DNA from: Gammaproteobacteria bacterium
GTDB taxonomy: Bacteria; Pseudomonadota; Gammaproteobacteria; SG8-11
Assembly: GCA_030610155.1 (NCBI GenBank)
Contig: JAUWSG010000010.1
Span: 1 to 34,657, forward strand
DNA length: 34,657 nt
Direction: 5' to 3'
Shown: positions 2,825 through 29,864 of the stretch, piece by piece
How positions within the stretch are numbered: position 1 is the stretch's first letter
How the letters are laid out: each line of letters starts with the position of its first letter
Notes under the pieces: model-generated
The model's input: only the letters and a program-made list of their open reading frames with translations
Databases searched by the model: none
What the model was told of the DNA's origin: nothing
Program-made: the position numbers and the translations under genes

Positions 2825-3541
2825 CTATCGGATCGCAAATTCCAGCTTCAAACCATCAATATCGATGATATCGTGATCTTGCAACGGTACACTTTGCGCA
2901 CCAATCGGATTTTCGTTAACGGTTGGAAAACTGCCATGCTTTTCGGATTTCCCGGAAACATGCGACACAAAATAGCCTTGTTGTCGCTTTGCAATCACGA
3001 TCATCGTGCCCGCATTCCCCATAGATGTATAAGATTTAACCAGGTCCAGCTCTTTACCGGCTTTAGGGCCACTCAGTACTTTCACATAGGCAAGTTTTAC
3101 GGCTTGTTTAGGCGGCTGTTCGGATTGATCTGCGGCGGATGGCGCTGCTCCCGGTACTGGTTCAGGTACCGGTTCTTTGGCAACATTCTCGGTAGTGGGC
3201 GCTATTACCACTGTCTTGTCAAAATCCGGCGCATCATCATCAAGAAACTTGAACTCATGTCGTCCAATTTGAATCATGTCCCCGTGCCGAAGCATGTGTT
3301 TCTTGATCTTCTTACCATTAACATAAGTACCATTAGTGCTATTAGCATCTTCTATATAAACGTCTTTGAGGTTTTCCATATAGAAATTTTGCTCAACCAG
3401 AACACGCGCATGCGTGCCGCTCACAGAAATATCATCGATTTGTATGTCATTCTGTGATTTTCGGCCAATATTAAACACTTCCTGCTCCAGCAGAAATTCT
3501 TTCGTTATCACACCATCACTACTAAGAACCAGTTTTGCCAT
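2825..3541 (-). CDS. FHA domain protein with a degenerate second FHA-like half
   Basis: The 238-residue soluble protein has an N-terminal FHA domain (about 1-98), a phosphothreonine-peptide binding fold. The binding-loop residues are visible: GRKSQNDIQI, SGTHARV and DANSTNGTYVNGKKI. A proline- and alanine-rich linker (about 110-148) joins it to a C-terminal half (about 150-238) with the same strand pattern (VKVLSGPKAGKELDL ... VPLQDHDIIDIDGLKLEF). That half lacks the GR, SxxH and NG residues and looks like a second FHA that lost ligand binding. It is 164 bp downstream of the PP2C gene, after the kinase gene, on the same strand. The natural inference is that it reads threonine phosphorylation made by that kinase; partners are unknown. 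Confidence 0.9.
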   Translation of the reverse strand: MAKLVLSSDGVITKEFLLEQEVFNIGRKSQNDIQIDDISVSGTHARVLVEQNFYMENLKDVYIEDANSTNGTYVNGKKIKKHMLRHGDMIQIGRHEFKFLDDDAPDFDKTVVIAPTTENVAKEPVPEPVPGAAPSAADQSEQPPKQAVKLAYVKVLSGPKAGKELDLVKSYTSMGNAGTMIVIAKRQQGYFVSHVSGKSEKHGSFPTVNENPIGAQSVPLQDHDIIDIDGLKLEFAIR

Positions 3542-3705
3542 CTTTTCTTTCCGAAAGTTCGATTTCCAAGCTTACCCGTTTACAGCCAGAATTGACCGCT
3601 ATTATTACACTCACTCATTAGCTGATCCATATAAACTTCTGACTTTATTCATCAAATTCTAGACTAATTTCAACCAGATGATAAATCTGATACGCGAAAA
3701 ACCGC

Positions 3706-4497
3706 TTAACTGCAAAATGTGCTTTTCTCAAATTCAGGATTAACACGGGCAATGATAATCGAAATGTTATCAATTCCGCCCTTGTCGTTTGCCTTCGCCA
3801 CTAATTGTTCTGCGGCCGTTTTCATATCTGATTTTGATTTAGCTAGCGTTAGTTGTATTTCCAGATCAGACACCAGATCTGTCAAGCCATCAGAACAAAG
3901 TAAAATGATATCATCTGTCTCAACAGTTTGTTGTTGCACATCAATATCCACATCAATATTAATTCCCAGTGCGCGGGTAATCATATTTTTATTAAGTTTT
4001 TTCTCCGCTTCTGCTTCGGACATATATCCCCCCTGTATCATTTCCTGATACAAGGAATGGTCCACTGTGAGCTGTTCTAACACCCCTTTCCTCAACCGGT
4101 ATAAACGTGAATCGCCAACATGCGCAATCGTTAGTGTATCTTCATGAAACAATGCCATAACAAGTGTTGTACCCATGCCTGCATACTGTGGTTTTGTCGC
4201 GGCTTCCGAGAAAATAGATTGATTTGCATTACTGATCGCACTCATACTCAAACAAACGGTATCTTCATCCATGCTCTCTTCACCATCCCCCAATGAACCT
4301 GAAGAGTCTTTTATTTCCTGTACAATACTTTCCACTGCCATCTTGCTGGCAACTTCACCTGCGTTATGACCACCCATACCATCTGCCAACAGGAGCAAGC
4401 CGAGGTCTTTCTCCCAGGTAATAAAATCCTCGTTGTGGTCGCGTGCACGACCAACATCTGTTAATCCGGCTATTTCTATCCTTTTATTTATATTCAT
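3706..4497 (-). CDS. PP2C-family Ser/Thr protein phosphatase
   Basis: The protein is 263 residues, about the full length of a minimal bacterial PP2C catalytic domain, with no membrane segment. All metal-binding motifs are seen: RDHNED near residue 20, LLLADGMGGHNAGE (about 36-49), MGTTLV, AHVGDSRLYRL (about 126-136), LLCSDGLTDLV and GGIDNISIIIARV. It should remove phosphate from Ser/Thr using two Mn/Mg ions. Its ATG overlaps the kinase stop codon (ATGA, 4494-4497), so kinase and phosphatase are translationally coupled. It probably reverses the action of that kinase and may act on its activation loop; the substrates are inferred only from gene order. Confidence 0.95.
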   Translation of the reverse strand: MNINKRIEIAGLTDVGRARDHNEDFITWEKDLGLLLLADGMGGHNAGEVASKMAVESIVQEIKDSSGSLGDGEESMDEDTVCLSMSAISNANQSIFSEAATKPQYAGMGTTLVMALFHEDTLTIAHVGDSRLYRLRKGVLEQLTVDHSLYQEMIQGGYMSEAEAEKKLNKNMITRALGINIDVDIDVQQQTVETDDIILLCSDGLTDLVSDLEIQLTLAKSKSDMKTAAEQLVAKANDKGGIDNISIIIARVNPEFEKSTFCS

Positions 4498-7067
4498 CTC
4501 TTTGGTTTTTGCGGATTATTAATGTGTTCCTGGCAGCGCCTGAATGCCAGCGCCATTTTCTCACCTGACTGAAAACGTTTATCAACATCCTTTTGTAAGG
4601 CCAGGTCAATTATTTTAGTCACGCATGACGAAAGTTCGGGCCGAAACATTCTCACGTCCGGATGCTTTTCAGTTGAAATTTTGTACATCAAATTTGCCAT
4701 CGAATCACCGATAAAAGGTAGCTCACCAGTAACTAACTGGAAAAACATGACGCCGAGAGAAAAAAGATCTGAACGACCATCCACTTTTTTACCTGCCAAC
4801 TGCTCAGGAGACATATATGAAGGTGTTCCCAGTATAGTGCCCGTTTTTGTTTTACTGACATCTGTCAGACAGGCAACACCAAAATCCGTCACCTTGACCA
4901 CCTTCTTCCTGGGCTCATACATTACATTTGCCGGTTTAATATCCCTGTGCACTACACCATGATTCTGCCCATAGTCCAGCGCTTCAGCAATTTTTGACAC
5001 TATAAAAAAAATATCATCCAGGGGCAGCAGCTTATCGGGTTTTGTATATACAGATAAATCTTGTCCCTGCAGAAAATCCATTGCTATATACGCAAGGTCA
5101 TGATCTTCACCCACATCATAAATAGTCACGATATTTGGATGATTCAAACGTCCTGCCGTTTTTGCTTCTCTAAAAAAGCGGTTTTTAACCTCTTCCAATT
5201 GATCGTCTTCAAATTCCTGGGAAAATGCCAGCGTCTTCACGGCAACGGTTCGGTTAATTTTAGGATCTTCCCCCAGATACACCATGCCCATGGCACCGCG
5301 TCCGATTTCCTTGACAATTTCATAGCGACCAATCATAGGCCGCTGGATAGCAGCATTATCTAACACGATGGTTCCGGCTTGTGCCGCCTTACCGACAGCC
5401 CCTGCCCCTGGCACCATGCGGCCTTCCATTTCACGATTACTCAAAATACGTTTTTTGGTATCACGAAAATCAACATTGTAATCTGCAATATAACGAAATA
5501 CTGAACCGGCCTTGGCAAACTGACGTTTACGTTCGTAATCAAGACCCAAAGTATAAAACAGATCCAGTGCCGTATCGTTTATAGGCAAATTCCTGAATTT
5601 TTCAAATGCCATGTCCAGCTGACCCTGGTTTTGCAAGGTCAAGCCCAGCATTTTATTTGAATCAGCTGTTTCTGATCTCCAGTCTGCCGCACTGTCTTGA
5701 AACATTCGTTTGGTTGCAATCAGCATCGACCCGATCAATAACTGTACCGTCGGTACCATCAGCTTGACCCAGATACCCTGGGTTATTAACAACATAAGTT
5801 CTGCATTGAATAACACGATAACCAGCAAGGCGCTTATTGCCAGACCTGTTACCAGACGCACACGTGACAATATTGACATCAGGAAAGAGGCCACCAGAAA
5901 AATACCCAGAAGCTCAACCCATGCAGCCCATTCAGGCTGTCGGTTATAATCACCATTGAGTATGTTCGAGACCGTATTAGCAACAAAGTTGATTGGTGAC
6001 ACAACATCCCCGGTTGGTAACAATACCGGCTCAACACTCTCTCCCTCTGTCAGGCCAATCAACACAATCTTATCTTTGAATTTTTCTGCAGGCACTTTCC
6101 CTTTATAAACATCATAAAACGAAACAATTTCAAATGGTGCCTGGTCGTCCTTGCCCTTATAAAAAGTAGGCAGCAGGTTGAATTGCTCATCTGTTGCAAT
6201 TACCTTTTTACCAAGCTTGATTCCTCCGGTTCGCATTATTTTTATATCATCAATTGTCATGCCTTCGCTGACCGCTGCCAGCATTAATGAAAATGATGCA
6301 AATATATTTTTGTTAAAATCCAGCACCAGACTTTCAGAACGCACAACCTGATTTCCATCAAAATCCGTTTTAGTATGCCCGACTGACTTCACAACTTTGC
6401 CAAATCGCTGTAGAGGCGGATTAATAATTGTGGCAACCGGCACAGACTGCTGATGCATCACGCTTGGCAAGTAGCTTGTACTGCTACGCCCCGGCGAAGA
6501 AAGGTCAGGCAAGGTATTTCTCGAAATGTAACTTGGTAGCACGGAGATATTCAGCGGTACACCGCTCATACGGTAAGGTATAGCAAGCACGACATTTTGA
6601 GATTTTCTTAATGCGCTAGCGAGTAACCGATCGGTGTTAAGGCCATATTCCGCTTCCTGTAACAAAGCTTCATATTCTGTTGCAAATTCAGCATCCAGAT
6701 TTTCTTCGTCTACTTGAGCGTAAATTTTCTTGAAGCGCTTTATATATTCCAGGCCATTGGTATTTTGCGGCCCACTCAAATCAATTGCGACACCAATTGC
6801 CCGTGGTTTCTCAGCGCTCACATCCTGAATCAAATCGGCCACGATGCTTCTGGGCCATGGCCAGTTTCCAAATTTAGCGATTGAGTTGGCATCAATACCA
6901 ATGATAGTGACTTGCTCATTTGCAGCACGAGCAGGCATCAAACTTACGCCAATATCGTAAGCCTTATTTTCCAGGCTCTGCATCACATTGCTACCCGCGG
7001 TAAATAAAATAACCAGCGTCACAATCAGACCCAGAAACCAATCAGCATTCCACACTGCTTTCTTCAC
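4494..7067 (-). CDS. CHASE2-domain transmembrane Ser/Thr protein kinase
   Basis: Domain order in 857 residues: an N-terminal membrane segment (about 10-28), a CHASE2 extracytoplasmic sensor (about 35-385, with VTIIGIDANSIAKFGNWPWPR), three closely spaced membrane helices (about 385-460), a short TPR-like helical linker (about 470-540), and a Hanks-type kinase (about 582-850). The kinase is complete: glycine loop GRGAMG, VAVK (Lys about 611), HRDIKPANV (Asp about 709), DFGVA (Asp about 728), TPSYMSPEQ and DGRSDLFSLGV. The start is a GTG with GAGAG a few bases upstream. An envelope signal of unknown kind is presumably converted to cytosolic Ser/Thr phosphorylation. No type VI secretion genes are nearby, unlike many bacterial kinase/phosphatase/FHA sets. 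Confidence 0.93.
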   Translation of the reverse strand: MKKAVWNADWFLGLIVTLVILFTAGSNVMQSLENKAYDIGVSLMPARAANEQVTIIGIDANSIAKFGNWPWPRSIVADLIQDVSAEKPRAIGVAIDLSGPQNTNGLEYIKRFKKIYAQVDEENLDAEFATEYEALLQEAEYGLNTDRLLASALRKSQNVVLAIPYRMSGVPLNISVLPSYISRNTLPDLSSPGRSSTSYLPSVMHQQSVPVATIINPPLQRFGKVVKSVGHTKTDFDGNQVVRSESLVLDFNKNIFASFSLMLAAVSEGMTIDDIKIMRTGGIKLGKKVIATDEQFNLLPTFYKGKDDQAPFEIVSFYDVYKGKVPAEKFKDKIVLIGLTEGESVEPVLLPTGDVVSPINFVANTVSNILNGDYNRQPEWAAWVELLGIFLVASFLMSILSRVRLVTGLAISALLVIVLFNAELMLLITQGIWVKLMVPTVQLLIGSMLIATKRMFQDSAADWRSETADSNKMLGLTLQNQGQLDMAFEKFRNLPINDTALDLFYTLGLDYERKRQFAKAGSVFRYIADYNVDFRDTKKRILSNREMEGRMVPGAGAVGKAAQAGTIVLDNAAIQRPMIGRYEIVKEIGRGAMGMVYLGEDPKINRTVAVKTLAFSQEFEDDQLEEVKNRFFREAKTAGRLNHPNIVTIYDVGEDHDLAYIAMDFLQGQDLSVYTKPDKLLPLDDIFFIVSKIAEALDYGQNHGVVHRDIKPANVMYEPRKKVVKVTDFGVACLTDVSKTKTGTILGTPSYMSPEQLAGKKVDGRSDLFSLGVMFFQLVTGELPFIGDSMANLMYKISTEKHPDVRMFRPELSSCVTKIIDLALQKDVDKRFQSGEKMALAFRRCQEHINNPQKPKR

Positions 7068-7870: not shown

Positions 7871-10800
7871 TTATCGCGCAATAACATGTGTGGTGACAGA
7901 GACTTTTTTACCATCTCGACGATAAACAATTGTTAACGGGTCGCCAGGGCTTAATGATCGTAGTACAGCAGAAAAATCTTTCAGGTCTGCAACGTCAGTA
8001 GTATTTAAACGAATGATGACGTCACCTGCCCGGAGCCCTGATTTCTCGGCAGGCGACCCTTTGGTAACATCAGTAATACGAACACCGTTTTCACTAAATG
8101 CAAAATCAGGTACCGTTCCCAGGCTAACACGCCGGCCTTGCGTTGTTTTTTGAGTGCCTGCCGCTTTTTTCTGATCCATACCGCTCATTGTCAAAGTGGA
8201 ATGCAGTGGCTCTGCCCGTGCAGCAAGATACTCCACCGCTTCTTTTAATACAGTCGCGACTTTAACCAGGCCCGCAGAATCAATTTTATCCGGTGTATCA
8301 GAAGGCCGATGAAAATCACTGTTCGCACCACTGAAGAACTGAACCGCCGGCACGCCGACATCCAGAAAACTCCTCTGGTCACTGGAACCAAATTCATTTT
8401 GTACACTTTGGATATCAACGCCGGTGACAAATCCGGCACCACGAAAAATATGTATCCATTCCCGTGCCGACCCCGTTCCAAAGACAGTCAATTTATTTTT
8501 GTTCAGACGGCCGACTGTATCCAGATTTAACATCCCCATCATTTTATTTATTGGATACCGACTGGCATTATTCACAAAATAAATTGATCCCCGTCGACCT
8601 GCTTCTTCAGCCGTGAAAGCAACAAACACTATCGTCCGATCAGGCGAACCTTTCGATGCGACGTTCCTGATGAGTTCCAGCATGACGGCAACACCACTGG
8701 CATTATCATCCGCACCATAATGGATTTTCCCTTCGTCGCCTTGATGTACATCCGGCCAACCACGCCCCAAATGATCATAATGCGCCGCCACGACCACACT
8801 TTGCTCACGCCATTGCGCCTTTTTTCCAGGTAAAATACCAATAACATTTTTCAGCTTTGTTTTACCTGCTGGTAATCCAGCATTTTCAGACCAGATTTGA
8901 AAATAACTATTACCATCTCCCCCTGGCTGCAAACCGGCTTTTTTAAATGCCCCGGCAATATAATTCGCCGCGTCATCCAGTGCCAACGTTCCCAGGCCGC
9001 GACCGGCCATTTTATCGCTTGCCAGGACTTCAATATCCTTGAGCATTCTTTTTTCAGAAAATACGGCGGGTAACTGTGCCAACGCAACCCGTGGCGCACG
9101 CTGCACTGCCATGGGCTCTGTTATTTTCCCGTCTGCTTGTACAACAGGAATCGACATCGGCGATTTCACAACCGGCCATTGTCCTTTGACAATATTTGTC
9201 GGTTCATCACCTTCAAAGCCAAGATAACTATAACGACCATAATGCGGTAATTTACGGCCCAGGCCCGGCATCGCTCTTTCGTTTTCGTTGCTTATCCAGC
9301 TTATAGCATGTTCCGGGTTCGCAGGATTTCGCGCTGTTAACACCAGTGAATGTTTTTCACGACTTAATTCGGCAGTTCCAATAGTCAAAGCATCATCCGA
9401 GAAATCAAGTTTATAGTCCTTCAAGGCCTCTTGTATTGTTTCCCGATAACGGTTTTCCCAACCCAACAACCAGACCGCGCGATCATCAGGCAAACTTTTC
9501 AGCTGGTCATCAAACTTGATTGCCACTTTGCCTTGCTGGCCTTTTTTCCAGTTATTGGCCAAATCTTCATAGGCCTTTTTAATCTTGCTGTTTGCCTTTG
9601 CTGGCAACACTATCAAAACTTTTTCAGCACCGAATGCTTTAGTAAAAGCGGGCGGTATCTCATTACGGTGCAGACGACGAAACACGTCAAACTCGGGATC
9701 TATATCCAGTTGTAACGGTCGGCCTTCAAGTTTAATGCGCAACTTGTGATGTTTTGATTTAACAAGCTCTACCGCCTGGAATGCCCTGTCTTTGCCTTCG
9801 ATAGATACTGAGAGCGGTAACCGCAAGGAATACGGTTTACCTTCCTGTATCTGTTCAATGTCCGCAGTGAGTACAAAACTGCCATTTTCCGGCCTGGCTT
9901 TGGCATTACTGATGCGCAATTCAGGTGCGCCGGTTCTACTCACCCATTGACTGAACATGTCCGCCAGCTCAGTGTCTGTTACCTGCTCGAATACATGCTG
10001 AACATCTTCAAAGGCGGCATATTTGAATTTATATTTCCGGTAAAATGTTTGTAGTGCTCGAATAAATTGCTCATCGCCTGTTTGCAGACGCAACATATGA
10101 AAAAGCATGAGTGTTTTTCCATATCCCACTGCTTCAGTTGTTGCACTATGACGGGAGCGAAATTCCGTTAGCGGAAAATCACGGTTCCCGTTTACGAAAT
10201 CAGTATATTTTTGCAAGGCATTTCTGCGATAGTTCACTGCCCGCCCACGTTGCTCCTTGATCAAATGGTCAGCCAGGTAACTGGTCAATCCTTCCGCCCA
10301 ATTGCCTTTTTCATAATCTACAAAAACACCATTCCCCCACCAGTTATGCAATATCTCATGCGGATAAGATGAGTGAAGAATAAACGGGAAGCGTATGACT
10401 TTTGGCCCCAGCAAGGTAAACGACGGCATGCCGTATCCGGTTTCCCAGAAATTCTCTACCAGGGCAAATTTTTTATAAGGATACGGGCCAAGCAACTTGC
10501 GATACATCTCAATGTATTGCGCGGTCGTCTCCAGATATTTTTGTGCTAACGAATCGTCTGCCTGACGCAGAAATACCATTGCCTCAACTGCGGCTGAAGC
10601 CTGGTTATATTCCCTGAATTGCGCGGCGATCAGATAAATTTCATCCTGTGGTTTGTCAATCGACCAGGTCTCCAGACGCACGTCATTGCGAGACATGTCA
10701 TTTATGCGCTGCCCCTGACTGACCGACGACCAGGTCTTCGGAAGTTCAACGCTGACATTAAACGTATGTAATGCTTCGCCAGAATGGGGATACCAGTAGC

Positions 10801-11263
10801 TGGCGCCCGAAAGAAATACACCATCTGGTGAAATAATTCCAGGCGACACCCCAAAGCTTCGAGCATATTCTGCACCTAACTGCTCAACAGGATGGTGTAT
10901 TTCACCACTGTAACGTAATGTTAACTTGCTTTTGTTTTTTGGCAGCGACAGTGAAAGCTGTTCTAACGGGACGTGCGACTGGCCTGAACCATCAACGGGC
11001 TGTAGATTTAACTTGATACTACTGTCATTAAGCTCAGGAGAAAGACCGGCATGCAAATATAGTTGCAATACACCTTTCTTAACCAACGTTTCCGGCAAAG
11101 TAAGTGTATCTTCAACCTTGATTGAATGTGTATCCGGCGACAATACAACCGTGATGTCGTGGTGAATAACATCATTCGCAACAGAAAACCCTGGAAACAA
11201 TAAAAAAACGAATAAACAGCAGCCCAACAAACTTCGTAAACAATTTACGCTAAGGGCTCTCAT
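7871..11263 (-). CDS. Secreted M1-M28-PDZ fusion metallopeptidase
   Basis: About 1130 residues that join two aminopeptidase families and a PDZ domain. A signal peptide (about 1-30, ending GFSVA) predicts export. The M1 (gluzincin) part spans about 30-530, with HEILH (His about 302 and 306) and the third ligand Glu about 324 in WAEGLTSYLAD, exactly 18 residues on. A linker region of about 530-725 has no motif I recognise. The M28 part (about 735-1010) keeps all five zinc ligands: AAHYDH, GADDNASG, TAEEAG, NLDTVG and SDFHRPSDT. A PDZ domain (about 1052-1130, GSPAEKSGLRAGDVI) ends it. The first in-frame ATG at 11263 was chosen over a TTG at 11269. It lies 10 bp after aspS. The role is presumably periplasmic peptide degradation. 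Confidence 0.92.
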   Translation of the reverse strand: MRALSVNCLRSLLGCCLFVFLLFPGFSVANDVIHHDITVVLSPDTHSIKVEDTLTLPETLVKKGVLQLYLHAGLSPELNDSSIKLNLQPVDGSGQSHVPLEQLSLSLPKNKSKLTLRYSGEIHHPVEQLGAEYARSFGVSPGIISPDGVFLSGASYWYPHSGEALHTFNVSVELPKTWSSVSQGQRINDMSRNDVRLETWSIDKPQDEIYLIAAQFREYNQASAAVEAMVFLRQADDSLAQKYLETTAQYIEMYRKLLGPYPYKKFALVENFWETGYGMPSFTLLGPKVIRFPFILHSSYPHEILHNWWGNGVFVDYEKGNWAEGLTSYLADHLIKEQRGRAVNYRRNALQKYTDFVNGNRDFPLTEFRSRHSATTEAVGYGKTLMLFHMLRLQTGDEQFIRALQTFYRKYKFKYAAFEDVQHVFEQVTDTELADMFSQWVSRTGAPELRISNAKARPENGSFVLTADIEQIQEGKPYSLRLPLSVSIEGKDRAFQAVELVKSKHHKLRIKLEGRPLQLDIDPEFDVFRRLHRNEIPPAFTKAFGAEKVLIVLPAKANSKIKKAYEDLANNWKKGQQGKVAIKFDDQLKSLPDDRAVWLLGWENRYRETIQEALKDYKLDFSDDALTIGTAELSREKHSLVLTARNPANPEHAISWISNENERAMPGLGRKLPHYGRYSYLGFEGDEPTNIVKGQWPVVKSPMSIPVVQADGKITEPMAVQRAPRVALAQLPAVFSEKRMLKDIEVLASDKMAGRGLGTLALDDAANYIAGAFKKAGLQPGGDGNSYFQIWSENAGLPAGKTKLKNVIGILPGKKAQWREQSVVVAAHYDHLGRGWPDVHQGDEGKIHYGADDNASGVAVMLELIRNVASKGSPDRTIVFVAFTAEEAGRRGSIYFVNNASRYPINKMMGMLNLDTVGRLNKNKLTVFGTGSAREWIHIFRGAGFVTGVDIQSVQNEFGSSDQRSFLDVGVPAVQFFSGANSDFHRPSDTPDKIDSAGLVKVATVLKEAVEYLAARAEPLHSTLTMSGMDQKKAAGTQKTTQGRRVSLGTVPDFAFSENGVRITDVTKGSPAEKSGLRAGDVIIRLNTTDVADLKDFSAVLRSLSPGDPLTIVYRRDGKKVSVTTHVIAR

Positions 11264-11273
11264 AAACAATCCG

Positions 11274-22180: not shown

Positions 22181-24589
22181 TTAATCCTGGTTGACTTGCT
22201 TTTGATCTTGCAAAGACCTGTTATTTTTTGTGGATTGAACCTTTTTAGCCGGTAGTGCAGGTAAATGAATTTTAAAGGTCGTACCCTGACCCAATTTACT
22301 TTCTACCGTTATATCCCCACCCATTATACGACAAAATCGTTGACTAATTGCCAGACCCAGTCCTGTACCACCATATTTACGTGTCGTTGAAGAATCAGCC
22401 TGAGCAAAGTCCTGAAATAATTTTTCAAGCTGATCTTCTGACAAACCAATACCGGAATCAGATATCGAAAATACAAGCCAGGGGGTATCTTCAAGATATT
22501 CATGCTCAGCAGTTAAAGTCACTTTTCCATTTTCAGTAAATTTTCCTGCATTACTGATAAGGTTGAGTAATAACTGCCGCAATTTGGTCAAATCTGTTGT
22601 TATAAGACCAACATCTTCCTTACAATTAATTTCAAAACTATTATTATTTTTTTCAACAAGCGGTTGAACAGTTGCCGCAACATCTTTCAATATCATCGCC
22701 ACATCTGCAGATTCATAATACAAATCCATCTTACCCGCTTCCACTTTTGCAAGATCGAGAATATCATCTATTAATTTCAGAAGATGCTTGCCGGCCCCAT
22801 GGATTTTTTCCAAATCTATAGCTGACTCCTGCTGATGCCTGGCTTCTGCATCTTCTTTTAGCAATTCGCTATAACCAATAATGGCATTGAGTGGCGTGCG
22901 TAACTCGTGGCTCATCTTTGCAAGAAAATCACTTTTTGCCCTGTTTGCTTCCTCAGCAACACGTTTTGCCTGATCAGTCTCCTGCTGCGCCAGATGACGC
23001 TCGAGTGTTACACTGACCCAGCGCCCCATTAACTTAACCAAATCCAGATCAGCAACAGGAAATGGTTTTTCCCTGGCTTGTCGACTTGAAAAATTGATGG
23101 TGCCAAATTTTTTTCCGTTTACCCAGATTGGCGTTGCGATATAAGCTTCCAACCGGGCAAACTTATACGCTTCATGATTACGTAAACTGGACTGACCAAC
23201 ATGATGAATCGATAAGGACTTCCCGGACTGGTATGTGATATTACAATAGGACCTCGCCAAAGGAACTTTATCTCCCGCCTTTATTTTAAAATCATGCGGC
23301 GCAACAATACTGATGATGGTGTTCAGTTGGGCCTTCTCATCAATCTGACAAACACGGCCTATTTCTGTACCCAATAACGCATTACCTACTTTCAGCACTT
23401 CTTTTACCTGATCATCAAAGCTTGCACCGGGTATTGATGACACATTATAGAGGACCCGAATTCGTTTGGTATGCATGACACTGGATTTTTCTATCCGTTT
23501 ACGAACCATTACCTCCTGTTTCAATATTTCTTTTGAACGGGTAACTTTACGATTGAGTTTGATAACGTAAAATGTGATGCCAGTAGAAACCAGAAAAACC
23601 AACATTACAATAACAACCCAGTACCAGTATTGACGGACAATTTCCTGAACTGTAATTTGTTCAATTTTCTTATAAGGGCCAACATGTAATTCTTTCATCA
23701 GGTCATGGACAGGCTGATAATCAAGCGGTACTGTCCAACCAGCACTCCTGGCCGCCAGAGCGGCATTACTATTGGGTGACATTTTTAATAAGGCGATAGC
23801 GACGCTTTGAGCCAGATCCTGACTTGTATGCTTTACAATCGCAAATGGCCATTCCGGATACAGTCGGGTACTGTGGGCGAAGGGAAAGTTTTCTGATTCT
23901 TGTGCATTGAGCACGCGAAAGTCCTTTAGATCAATCTTCCCTGCTTTGGCCATACGTTCCAATAAATCTGTTCGTACTGTGCCTGCATCCACTTTTCCAT
24001 CCCTGACAGCCAATACAATCTTATCCTGGGGAAAACCACTGAATTCGAGACGTTCAAAATCTGACCCAGGAGTTATTCCCTGCAGCTTCATCTCACGCCA
24101 TGCCATCCACCATCCCCCGAAGGCATCCGGGTGTACAGCTGCAAATGATTTTCCTTTTAAGTCTGCTAACGTTTGTATTGATTTATTGTCTGACCTCGTC
24201 AGGATAAGTGCACCAAAACGTGTATACACACCGCCTGCACGTCGGTTTCTTAGCGTTGCAATACGTGTAATGCCATATTGTGCTTCCAGTTCTGCATAGG
24301 AAGCGGAGTTCGTCAATACAAAATCCACCTTGCCTTGTGCAACTGAATTTTCTATGTCATCTAATGTCAGGGGAACAATACGAAAACTGTATTCAGGAAT
24401 GGACTCTTCTAAATAACTTGCCGTCGGGTACCACATTTTGTAAGCGAGACCGGGTCCACGAAATGCCAGGACACCTAGTTTTATTTTCTTTATATCTGAA
24501 CTCACGGGCACTGAATACAACAACGTGAGGCAAAATAACGCCCCAAGGATCAGTTTTAAATATCGCCCTTCTGCATGCTGAATGGTCAT
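22181..24589 (-). CDS. Sensor histidine kinase with PhnD-like periplasmic domain
   Basis: About 802 residues. Order: a signal/anchor helix (about 10-32), a periplasmic PhnD/SsuA-type binding domain (about 35-300; [38 protein letters not shown]), a membrane helix (about 322-342), a GAF-like domain (about 380-530), and a kinase core with phospho-His near 561 in [19 protein letters not shown]. The N, G1 and G2 boxes follow ([39 protein letters not shown]). There is no receiver domain and no response regulator gene alongside. The layout resembles tetrathionate sensors (TtrS), but the ligand is unknown. The ATG at 24589 was chosen over a TTG at 24598. Confidence 0.93.
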
Positions 24590-24677
24590 GAGCACCAATT
24601 AACTATTATTTTTGTGGTTATTAAGATATGCCCTGTGATCTCAATAATTCTTTATCGACATACAAGGATAAAGGTTA

Positions 24678-27935: not shown

Positions 27936-29864
27936 GTGACACATAACGAAGCATCAACTGGCTTGCTTGGTATACCCGAGCAAAAATCAGACACGGGCAT
28001 GGAAATTCGCCCCAAGCATATCGCAAAATGGATAGACTCACTCCCGCGCGCCAATGTGGGGGAAACAGCGAAGCTCGTCTATAAAAACCTGCATCGTTTA
28101 AACAGAACACAAATATCGGATGTTAATCGTTACAAAATTCTGGAACTATTCTGGGAACCCACCAATTTTCTTACCGAGGCACTGAAAAAACATTATCTTG
28201 GCCTCTCCTTCCCTTTGCCTGCAAAAAAACAACAAGTGGCATTACTATCGCGGGAAATCCAGGCGGAAATGGCGACTGGCTATAAAATAGTCATAGAGGG
28301 AAAATTAACAGGGCAAAGTTCAAAGCTGGATAAGAAGATACTGGCCATGACGATCTATCATGCCATGCGTTATCTGAGTGCTGTTTTACAAGGTTCATAT
28401 CAAATCTACGTGCCGGAGCCAGCCAATATCTGGAAGCAGCTTTATCGTCTGTATTTGCATGCGCAACAAAACAATTTTAATGATTTGCCACTGGACACGG
28501 GAAAGAACAAGCATGAAACCCAGGCGACTATAAACAATTTATTTAAACAAATATTACTCCTTTCGCTTGCCAGCCCCTATAGAATGCGCCAGGGTGATAT
28601 TGAAAAAGTTGGAAATTTTCTGCTGCAATGGGGTTCCTATGCAAAAATCAGTGAACTCATTGACCCCGATCAATGCACAGGTATGTATTCATTTAATTTG
28701 AGTAGTGATAACCCACCCGGTTTCTTCACTCCCGATGAATCACAACTATCTCTCATTCATATACTCGATACTGTGGATCTGGTCGCAGCCATTAAGGATG
28801 ATATCAAACACTACAGTAGTTATGTCGCCAGCCATGGTGGCAATAAAAACAAAATTCTTTCCAAAAAAGTGTTAAAGCAACTATTTCTGACATGGGGCGG
28901 CATTGCCAAACGTGGTTTCTCTCGTGCCAGAAGCAATATGAAAATACTGGTCACATTTGGTTTAAGTGCTACCCACCACATAATTTATGAAACAATGAAA
29001 GCCGCGATCGAAGAAAACATTAAGCACAAGGAAAAACCAAAAAAAGATGACCAATGGCCTCCTCGCAATTTGCCAGAAGCAACACAAGATGATGAACTGG
29101 ATGAATATTTAAACCTTGATTTAAACGAACCCGTCTATAATAAAAACTCACATTTTTCCAGTGCACCTGTCTTTGGTGTCTCTCAACCGCAGACTTCTAA
29201 ACAGGATGTATGGAACCCTCTTTATAACAGCAATATTGTTGATTACGACGACACGATATTCAGTCACTCAACAATTTCAGGGAAAGACAATTTCACTAGT
29301 CAATCACAGTCAATCCAGTATGAAACCCACCTTTGTAACAGTGTAAACGAGAGCGCTAATGGTTTCTGTTTAACGTGGCAACCGACAGAAAATCATAATT
29401 CACCTATTAACGCCCTGGTAGGCGAGCTCGTTGGCATCAGAGAACTAGGAGATTCAGATGAGTCTCAATGGGGTATCGGTGTCATAAGATGGTTGAAACA
29501 TACCGGTACAAAAAAACTGGAACTAGGCATACAAAAACTCGCGCCACATGCCATATCAGCGGGATCACTGATTATCAAGAAAATAAAAACACCGGGGTCT
29601 TATCTAAGGACATTGGTACTACCGGAAATCAAATCGATCAATCAACCAATGACCCTGATTGCACCCAATATTTATGGCGTAGGAAATACTTTAAGCCTCA
29701 GTATTTTTGGCGATAAAATTCCGATACGACTGACCAAATTAATTGAAACAACCGGCGCATTCTCACATTTCCAGTTCACCAGTATCTCCGAAAATGATAT
29801 GACAGACGCGACAGAGGACAATCCAAAACTTGATTTTGATGATGTGTGGTCATCTATAAAATAA
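27936..29864 (+). CDS. Conserved hypothetical protein upstream of fimX, possible PilZ-like C-terminus
   Basis: A 642-residue soluble protein I cannot name with certainty. Residues 1-340 look all-helical (IRPKHIAKWIDSLPRANVGETAKLVYKNLHRLNR; later TPDESQLSLIHILDTVDLV). Residues 350-490 are charged and low in complexity, probably a linker. Residues about 495-605 look like a beta-barrel (NGFCLTWQ, LVGELVGIREL, WGIGVIRWLKH, LGIQKLAPHA), reminiscent of PilZ but without the RxxxR and D/NxSxxG motifs. The GTG start has GAGGG nearby. It lies upstream of fimX on the same strand. From memory, Pseudomonas has a conserved protein of similar size next to fimX and psd; I could not check this. A c-di-GMP or pilus role is inference. 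Confidence 0.75.
   Translation: MTHNEASTGLLGIPEQKSDTGMEIRPKHIAKWIDSLPRANVGETAKLVYKNLHRLNRTQISDVNRYKILELFWEPTNFLTEALKKHYLGLSFPLPAKKQQVALLSREIQAEMATGYKIVIEGKLTGQSSKLDKKILAMTIYHAMRYLSAVLQGSYQIYVPEPANIWKQLYRLYLHAQQNNFNDLPLDTGKNKHETQATINNLFKQILLLSLASPYRMRQGDIEKVGNFLLQWGSYAKISELIDPDQCTGMYSFNLSSDNPPGFFTPDESQLSLIHILDTVDLVAAIKDDIKHYSSYVASHGGNKNKILSKKVLKQLFLTWGGIAKRGFSRARSNMKILVTFGLSATHHIIYETMKAAIEENIKHKEKPKKDDQWPPRNLPEATQDDELDEYLNLDLNEPVYNKNSHFSSAPVFGVSQPQTSKQDVWNPLYNSNIVDYDDTIFSHSTISGKDNFTSQSQSIQYETHLCNSVNESANGFCLTWQPTENHNSPINALVGELVGIRELGDSDESQWGIGVIRWLKHTGTKKLELGIQKLAPHAISAGSLIIKKIKTPGSYLRTLVLPEIKSINQPMTLIAPNIYGVGNTLSLSIFGDKIPIRLTKLIETTGAFSHFQFTSISENDMTDATEDNPKLDFDDVWSSIK

Follow-up and report, generated by a model that had tools for sequence, protein, structure and literature searches.

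A widespread M1–M28–PDZ fusion with two predicted metallopeptidase sites is linked in genomes to a PD40 beta-propeller protein

The window that we analysed, the whole 34,657-nucleotide stretch of gammaproteobacterial DNA, carries on its minus strand (7871-11263) one intact open reading frame that begins with an ATG at 11263, ends with the stop codon at 7871-7873 and encodes 1130 amino acids. A TTG at 11269, two codons upstream, is an alternative start that would give 1132 residues; residue numbers below are counted from the ATG. Three Pfam families match the protein, all above their gathering scores: Peptidase_M1 (PF01433, E 1.6e-10), Peptidase_M28 (PF04389, E 5.7e-42, 144 bits against a gathering score of 21.3) and PDZ_2 (PF13180, E 8.1e-16, 58.5 bits against 27). 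The first-pass annotation, which had named these three families, described a single secreted chain with two unrelated zinc-peptidase folds and a C-terminal PDZ domain, and the reading frame, the Pfam matches and the predicted signal peptide bear this out. From the appearance of its N terminus, the protein looks like an exported one, and its location is probably periplasmic. The full-length AlphaFold2 model is confident (pLDDT 90.4, pTM 0.86), and the parts of the gene are as follows.

7871..11263, minus strand: complete gene for an M1–alpha/beta–M28–PDZ protein of 1130 aa, predicted to be exported (open reading frame, Pfam, full-length homologues)
11180..11263, minus strand: predicted signal peptide, about residues 1-28, a hydrophobic stretch ending FPGFSVAN (sequence; model helix 2-26, low confidence at 25-27)
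10580..11176, minus strand: M1-type domain I, beta-rich, residues 30 to about 228 (AlphaFold2 model; structural match to M1 enzymes over about 560 columns)
9929..10579, minus strand: M1-type catalytic domain, residues about 229-445 (PF01433; model; structural match)
9701..9919, minus strand: M1 domain III beta-sandwich, residues 449-521 (AlphaFold2 model; structural match)
9116..9694, minus strand: alpha/beta flavodoxin-like domain, residues 524-716 (model; Foldseek match to BcsB, E 6.6e-5; ends the stand-alone homologues)
8204..9061, minus strand: M28 peptidase domain, residues 735-1020, without PA insertion (Pfam; model; homologue comparison)
7886..8095, minus strand: PDZ domain, residues 1057-1126 (PF13180 and PF17820; pLDDT about 83-94 over most of the domain)

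Neither the Pfam matches of the 1130-aa protein nor the NCBIfam matches shown for it include M61, the family with an M1-like domain and a PDZ, and Pfam finds no S41-type serine peptidase core in the chain. A gap of 10 bp separates the start of the gene from the end of aspS, and one of 21 bp lies between its own end and an alpha/beta hydrolase gene; this tight spacing makes the co-transcription with both that was first proposed plausible. Neither neighbour, though, is among the gene clusters shared by 80 related loci (compared by clustering of the neighbouring genes), and we therefore reject a conserved operon with aspS and the hydrolase. A phospho-signalling cluster downstream of the hydrolase (2825-7067, minus strand) encodes a CHASE2 sensor Ser/Thr protein kinase of 857 aa, a PP2C phosphatase and an FHA-domain protein. 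The window also holds a histidine kinase whose sensor part consists of a phosphonate-type periplasmic binding domain and a GAF domain (22181-24598, minus strand), and a 642-aa open frame with no Pfam match at E 0.01 (27936-29864, plus strand).

The same protein is encoded at full length, in a single reading frame and with about 50% identity, by two further genomes from the family of the window's organism; in a sample of 369 genomes of the class, about 20 others show the same single frame. Scanning GTDB genomes gave 555 relatives, of which the 80 best were taken forward for locus analysis; these loci, from about ten phyla, all show the M1–M28–PDZ order, save where a contig end or, in one case, a stop codon cuts it short. 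Because the same frame recurs in all three sets, a sequencing error or a chimeric joint between two genes is ruled out. The hosts of the best 80 loci include Gammaproteobacteria, Nitrosomonas (several of them cultured), Nitrospirota, Planctomycetota, Calditrichota, Ignavibacteriota, Acidobacteriota, Myxococcota and others, although most are metagenome bins, so that individual taxon assignments may be wrong. An architecture that had seemed rare or one-off is thus widespread among the best 80 of the 555 relatives, and its homologues align over both catalytic domains. The first-pass annotation knew of no characterised enzyme with this order and would have given way to a common, already characterised architecture: common it is, across 80 loci, but full-text literature searches found no paper that characterises an enzyme of the M1–M28–PDZ order.

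The fusion design turns out to be old. A quick tree built from the M1-type part groups the fusions into a single clade (SH-aLRT 99). Most stand-alone forms fall outside this clade, and a few, from genomes G004, G075, G245, G340, G026 and G173, are nested within it. Three loci entered as stand-alone M1-type proteins (L048, L096 and L127) are in fact fusions. The simplest reading of the tree would be one fusion event followed by several losses of the M28–PDZ half, within the limits that its long branches and short-search support set on such reconstruction.

The M1-type part has the fold of its family: model residues 30-521 correspond to M1 domains I-III, with Foldseek matches to IRAP, ERAP1, PepN and F3 (E 1e-23 to 1e-26, about 560 columns), and the Pfam M1 catalytic model aligns only in part, from position 73. 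We counted residue conservation over 65 aligned full-length fusion homologues, and the sites in this part are these.

10346..10360, minus strand: HEILH zinc motif, residues 302-306; H302, E303 and H306 invariant in 65/65
10292..10294, minus strand: third zinc ligand E324 (GNWAEG), invariant in 65/65
10121..10123, minus strand: Y381, the probable M1 catalytic tyrosine position, aligned to the M1 Tyr region; 65/65
10421..10438, minus strand: GYGMPS, residues 276-281, the GxMEN region of M1 aminopeptidases; Glu and Asn absent (column counts, PepN comparison)

The zinc site that had been described as intact is therefore invariant throughout the family, with the HEXXH-18-E spacing in all 65 homologues. 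In common with the M1 aminopeptidases PepN, PSA, ERAP1 and IRAP (PF01433), the protein has this motif, the catalytic tyrosine position and domains I-III; it differs from them in lacking the Glu and Asn of GxMEN and in having a flavodoxin-like alpha/beta domain where they have the HEAT domain IV. The GxMEN region of the window protein reads VENFWETGYGMPSFTLLG, with GYGMPSFT in place of the motif; Glu and Asn are absent in 65/65 homologues, and no conserved acidic residue stands between residues 275 and 301 in that alignment. By comparison, GAMEN is retained, with its normal spacing, in eight of the nine PepN-type homologues taken from genomes of this class. The register of the region differs among HMMER, hhalign and an ungapped reading anchored at the PYP motif, which give Tyr or a gap, Thr or Pro, but none of the three places a Glu at the GxMEN position.

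In M1 aminopeptidases, the GxMEN glutamate is proposed to bind the substrate N terminus (PMC10343166), and Glu and Asn together to hold it (PMC10343166, PMC2241622). The motif does not decide activity, because Aminopeptidase O (Ap-O), in which GxMEN is gone except for Met, is still called an aminopeptidase (PMC2241622), and NosP, an M1 enzyme that retains GAMEN, has both endopeptidase and aminopeptidase activity (PMC13039773). The window protein belongs to M1 by fold and zinc site, yet it lacks the GxMEN signature, and the first-pass label of aminopeptidase for this part is unproven; the replacement of both residues in all 65 homologues is suggestive only, as Ap-O illustrates. An endo- or oligopeptidase role is plausible from this loss, as a lead and not as proof.

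The roughly 200 residues between the peptidase domains, first described as a join with no recognisable motif, form a conserved domain. Predicted alone, residues 524-716 fold with confidence (pLDDT 94.2, pTM 0.88), which also answers the structure prediction proposed for the supposed linker; the domain is nearly constant in length in the 65 full-length fusions, and in other genomes M1-type proteins that stand alone, about 700-740 residues long, align through it and end after it. Its conservation and its confident predicted fold rule out a disordered or motif-less linker. The best Foldseek match is the flavodoxin-like domain of BcsB, with weaker matches to parts of GH115 and GH67 glucuronidases; TM-scores are below about 0.5, so that the resemblance is one of fold and says nothing of function. 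In the AlphaFold2 model and the Foldseek comparison, the C-terminal HEAT domain IV is not present and the alpha/beta domain takes its place; some other M1 members also lack domain IV or have it shortened (PMC10343166).

The M28 domain likewise retains the complete set of catalytic residues, with all five metal ligands, as first noted, and the general base present in every aligned homologue.

8780..8782, minus strand: M28 ligand H828 (HYDH), 65/65
8705..8707, minus strand: M28 bridging Asp D853 (GADDNASG), 65/65
8603..8608, minus strand: M28 general base E886 and ligand E887, 65/65
8519..8521, minus strand: M28 ligand D915, 65/65
8309..8311, minus strand: M28 ligand H985, 65/65

Its nearest solved relatives are 2ek8, YwaD and the Vibrio aminopeptidase AAP, with which (PF04389) it shares the five ligands and the general base; it differs from them in being fused between an M1-type protein and a PDZ domain. 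We infer that both zinc sites are active. A survey of microbial PDZ proteins describes two PDZ-peptidase families, ‘APN’ and ‘ZEP’, as functionally uncharacterised (PMC6411480). These also pair PDZ with either an aminopeptidase-N-type domain or a Zn-dependent exopeptidase, whereas the window protein has both peptidase kinds in one chain, a combination of which the accessible part of the survey makes no mention.

The best-supported new point is the link to a PD40 beta-propeller. When the neighbouring genes of the 80 loci were clustered, a single family recurred, that of an exported protein of about 350 residues built of PD40 beta-propeller repeats and often bearing a lipobox. By profile search, its gene lies less than 500 bp from the fusion in 32 of the 80 loci and is not adjacent in 48; where more than 1.3 kb is available on both sides, the two are adjacent in 26 of 57 loci. 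On the same strand, the propeller gene is downstream in 13 loci and upstream in 11; it is divergent in five and convergent in three, and since the orientation varies, the pairing has probably been re-formed and not merely inherited. Among the 369 genomes of the class, 15 have both genes, seven have the fusion with no propeller detected, five have the propeller only and 342 have neither (Fisher p 1.3e-17, in a test that ignores relatedness and genome incompleteness). The propeller of the window's own genome is on another contig (C145:7995-8960). One genome (G370; C4, C9) holds four propeller-family copies, one of them about 4 kb from the fusion. An M16 peptidase gene lies directly upstream of the fusion in 17 of the 80 loci (L069, L076, L089, L090, L095, L098, L110 and others); these are mostly from Ignavibacteria and related MAGs, and we rejected M16 as a general partner.

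In three of the five propeller-only genomes, the propeller is joined to M28–PDZ itself. G352 and G250 encode propeller–M28–PDZ in one chain, G177 encodes M28–PDZ–propeller (L142:2147-5443), and in a fourth genome, G345, both pieces sit at the ends of contigs, consistent with one such chain that the assembly broke. The chains of G352, G250 and G177 share the M28–PDZ and propeller modules with the window's genome but carry an inserted PA domain that the window protein lacks. G352 and G250 carry the M1-type module as a separate gene; no such module was found in G177. The modules occur either as (M1-type)–(M28–PDZ) with a propeller, the form in the window's genome, or as M1-type with (propeller–M28–PDZ). 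In G316 (L160), the remaining propeller-only genome, the cut-off used returned neither a fusion nor an M28–PDZ match. No member of the propeller family was detected in any of the six genomes with nested stand-alone M1-type proteins; because propeller and M28–PDZ go missing together, the pattern fits a propeller that would serve the M28–PDZ half.

These modules recall tricorn and its factors F1-F3, with which they have in common a PD40 beta-propeller, a PDZ domain and a peptidase; factor F3, among the structural matches of the window M1 part, is an M1 enzyme. In tricorn, the propeller guides substrate (PMC3808539). At the level of genes, a PD40 propeller accompanies a PDZ peptidase here, through adjacency in 32/80 loci and fusions in both orders. 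The catalytic core, in contrast, is M28/M1 here and S41 in tricorn, the propeller is usually a separate protein, and the window protein is exported, judging by its signal peptide, whereas tricorn is cytosolic. The system is thus a tricorn-type module in outline, analogous and not homologous in its catalytic part, and stands outside the tricorn family because the S41 core is absent.

Our preferred interpretation, which we regard as an even bet, is that the exported two-site metallopeptidase and the separate propeller form an extracytoplasmic peptide-degrading module that works in a tricorn-like manner. It builds on the observed architecture, conservation and genomic link between propeller and M28–PDZ, and on predicted domain folds. 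The M1-type site, without the GxMEN glutamate and the HEAT lid, would most likely cut peptides independently of a free N terminus, as an endo- or oligopeptidase, and the M28 site would trim the resulting products as an aminopeptidase. The separate exported propeller may dock on or gate the M28–PDZ half, so that propeller and fusion jointly would resemble tricorn with its peptidase factors, around a different catalytic core. This division of labour, the physical complex with the propeller and the role in peptide breakdown are what we infer. More tentatively, and on the unlikely side, we suggest one widespread complex in which the propeller admits substrate to an M28–PDZ core and the GxMEN-less M1-type endo- or oligopeptidase feeds the M28 aminopeptidase.

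The fusion could instead be a bifunctional aminopeptidase, both sites trimming N termini with different specificities while the PDZ domain holds the substrate and the propeller link reflects some other function. Both folds come from families that are mainly aminopeptidases, all metal and base residues are intact, and loss of GxMEN is no bar to aminopeptidase activity, as Ap-O exemplifies (PMC2241622); we nevertheless consider this doubtful, since Glu and Asn of GxMEN are lost in 65/65 and the propeller fusions to M28–PDZ are left unaccounted for. It is improbable, to a greater degree, that M28 is the sole working peptidase and that the M1-type and alpha/beta domains are a binding or scaffold arm or act on a special non-peptide or modified substrate. 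The absence of GxMEN and the HEAT lid, the partial Pfam alignment and the resemblance of the alpha/beta domain to BcsB and to GH115/GH67 glucuronidase domains, which handle polysaccharide, would all suit such an arm, but strict invariance of HEXXH-18-E and the tyrosine across phyla is hard to square with a lack of catalysis. That fusion and propeller are only loosely associated proteins of general periplasmic scavenging with no shared mechanism seems very improbable: the propeller is unlinked in the window's genome and M16 peptidases also adjoin the fusion, mostly in one group of relatives, but chance would hardly produce adjacency in four orientations together with single-chain fusions in either order and the joint absence.

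We conclude that M1–M28–PDZ is a widespread, uncharacterised and ordinary-looking exported metallopeptidase with two sites predicted from sequence. The M1-type enzymes of this group, fused and stand-alone alike, all lack the residue by which aminopeptidases are defined, and automatic procedures may be wrong to annotate them as such. The three modules (M1-type, M28–PDZ and PD40 propeller) are conserved in many phyla of bacteria and also in cultured Nitrosomonas, and come with predictions of partner and activity. If the tricorn-like interpretation is true, the mixing of separate modules would have produced a metallopeptidase equivalent of tricorn and its factors.
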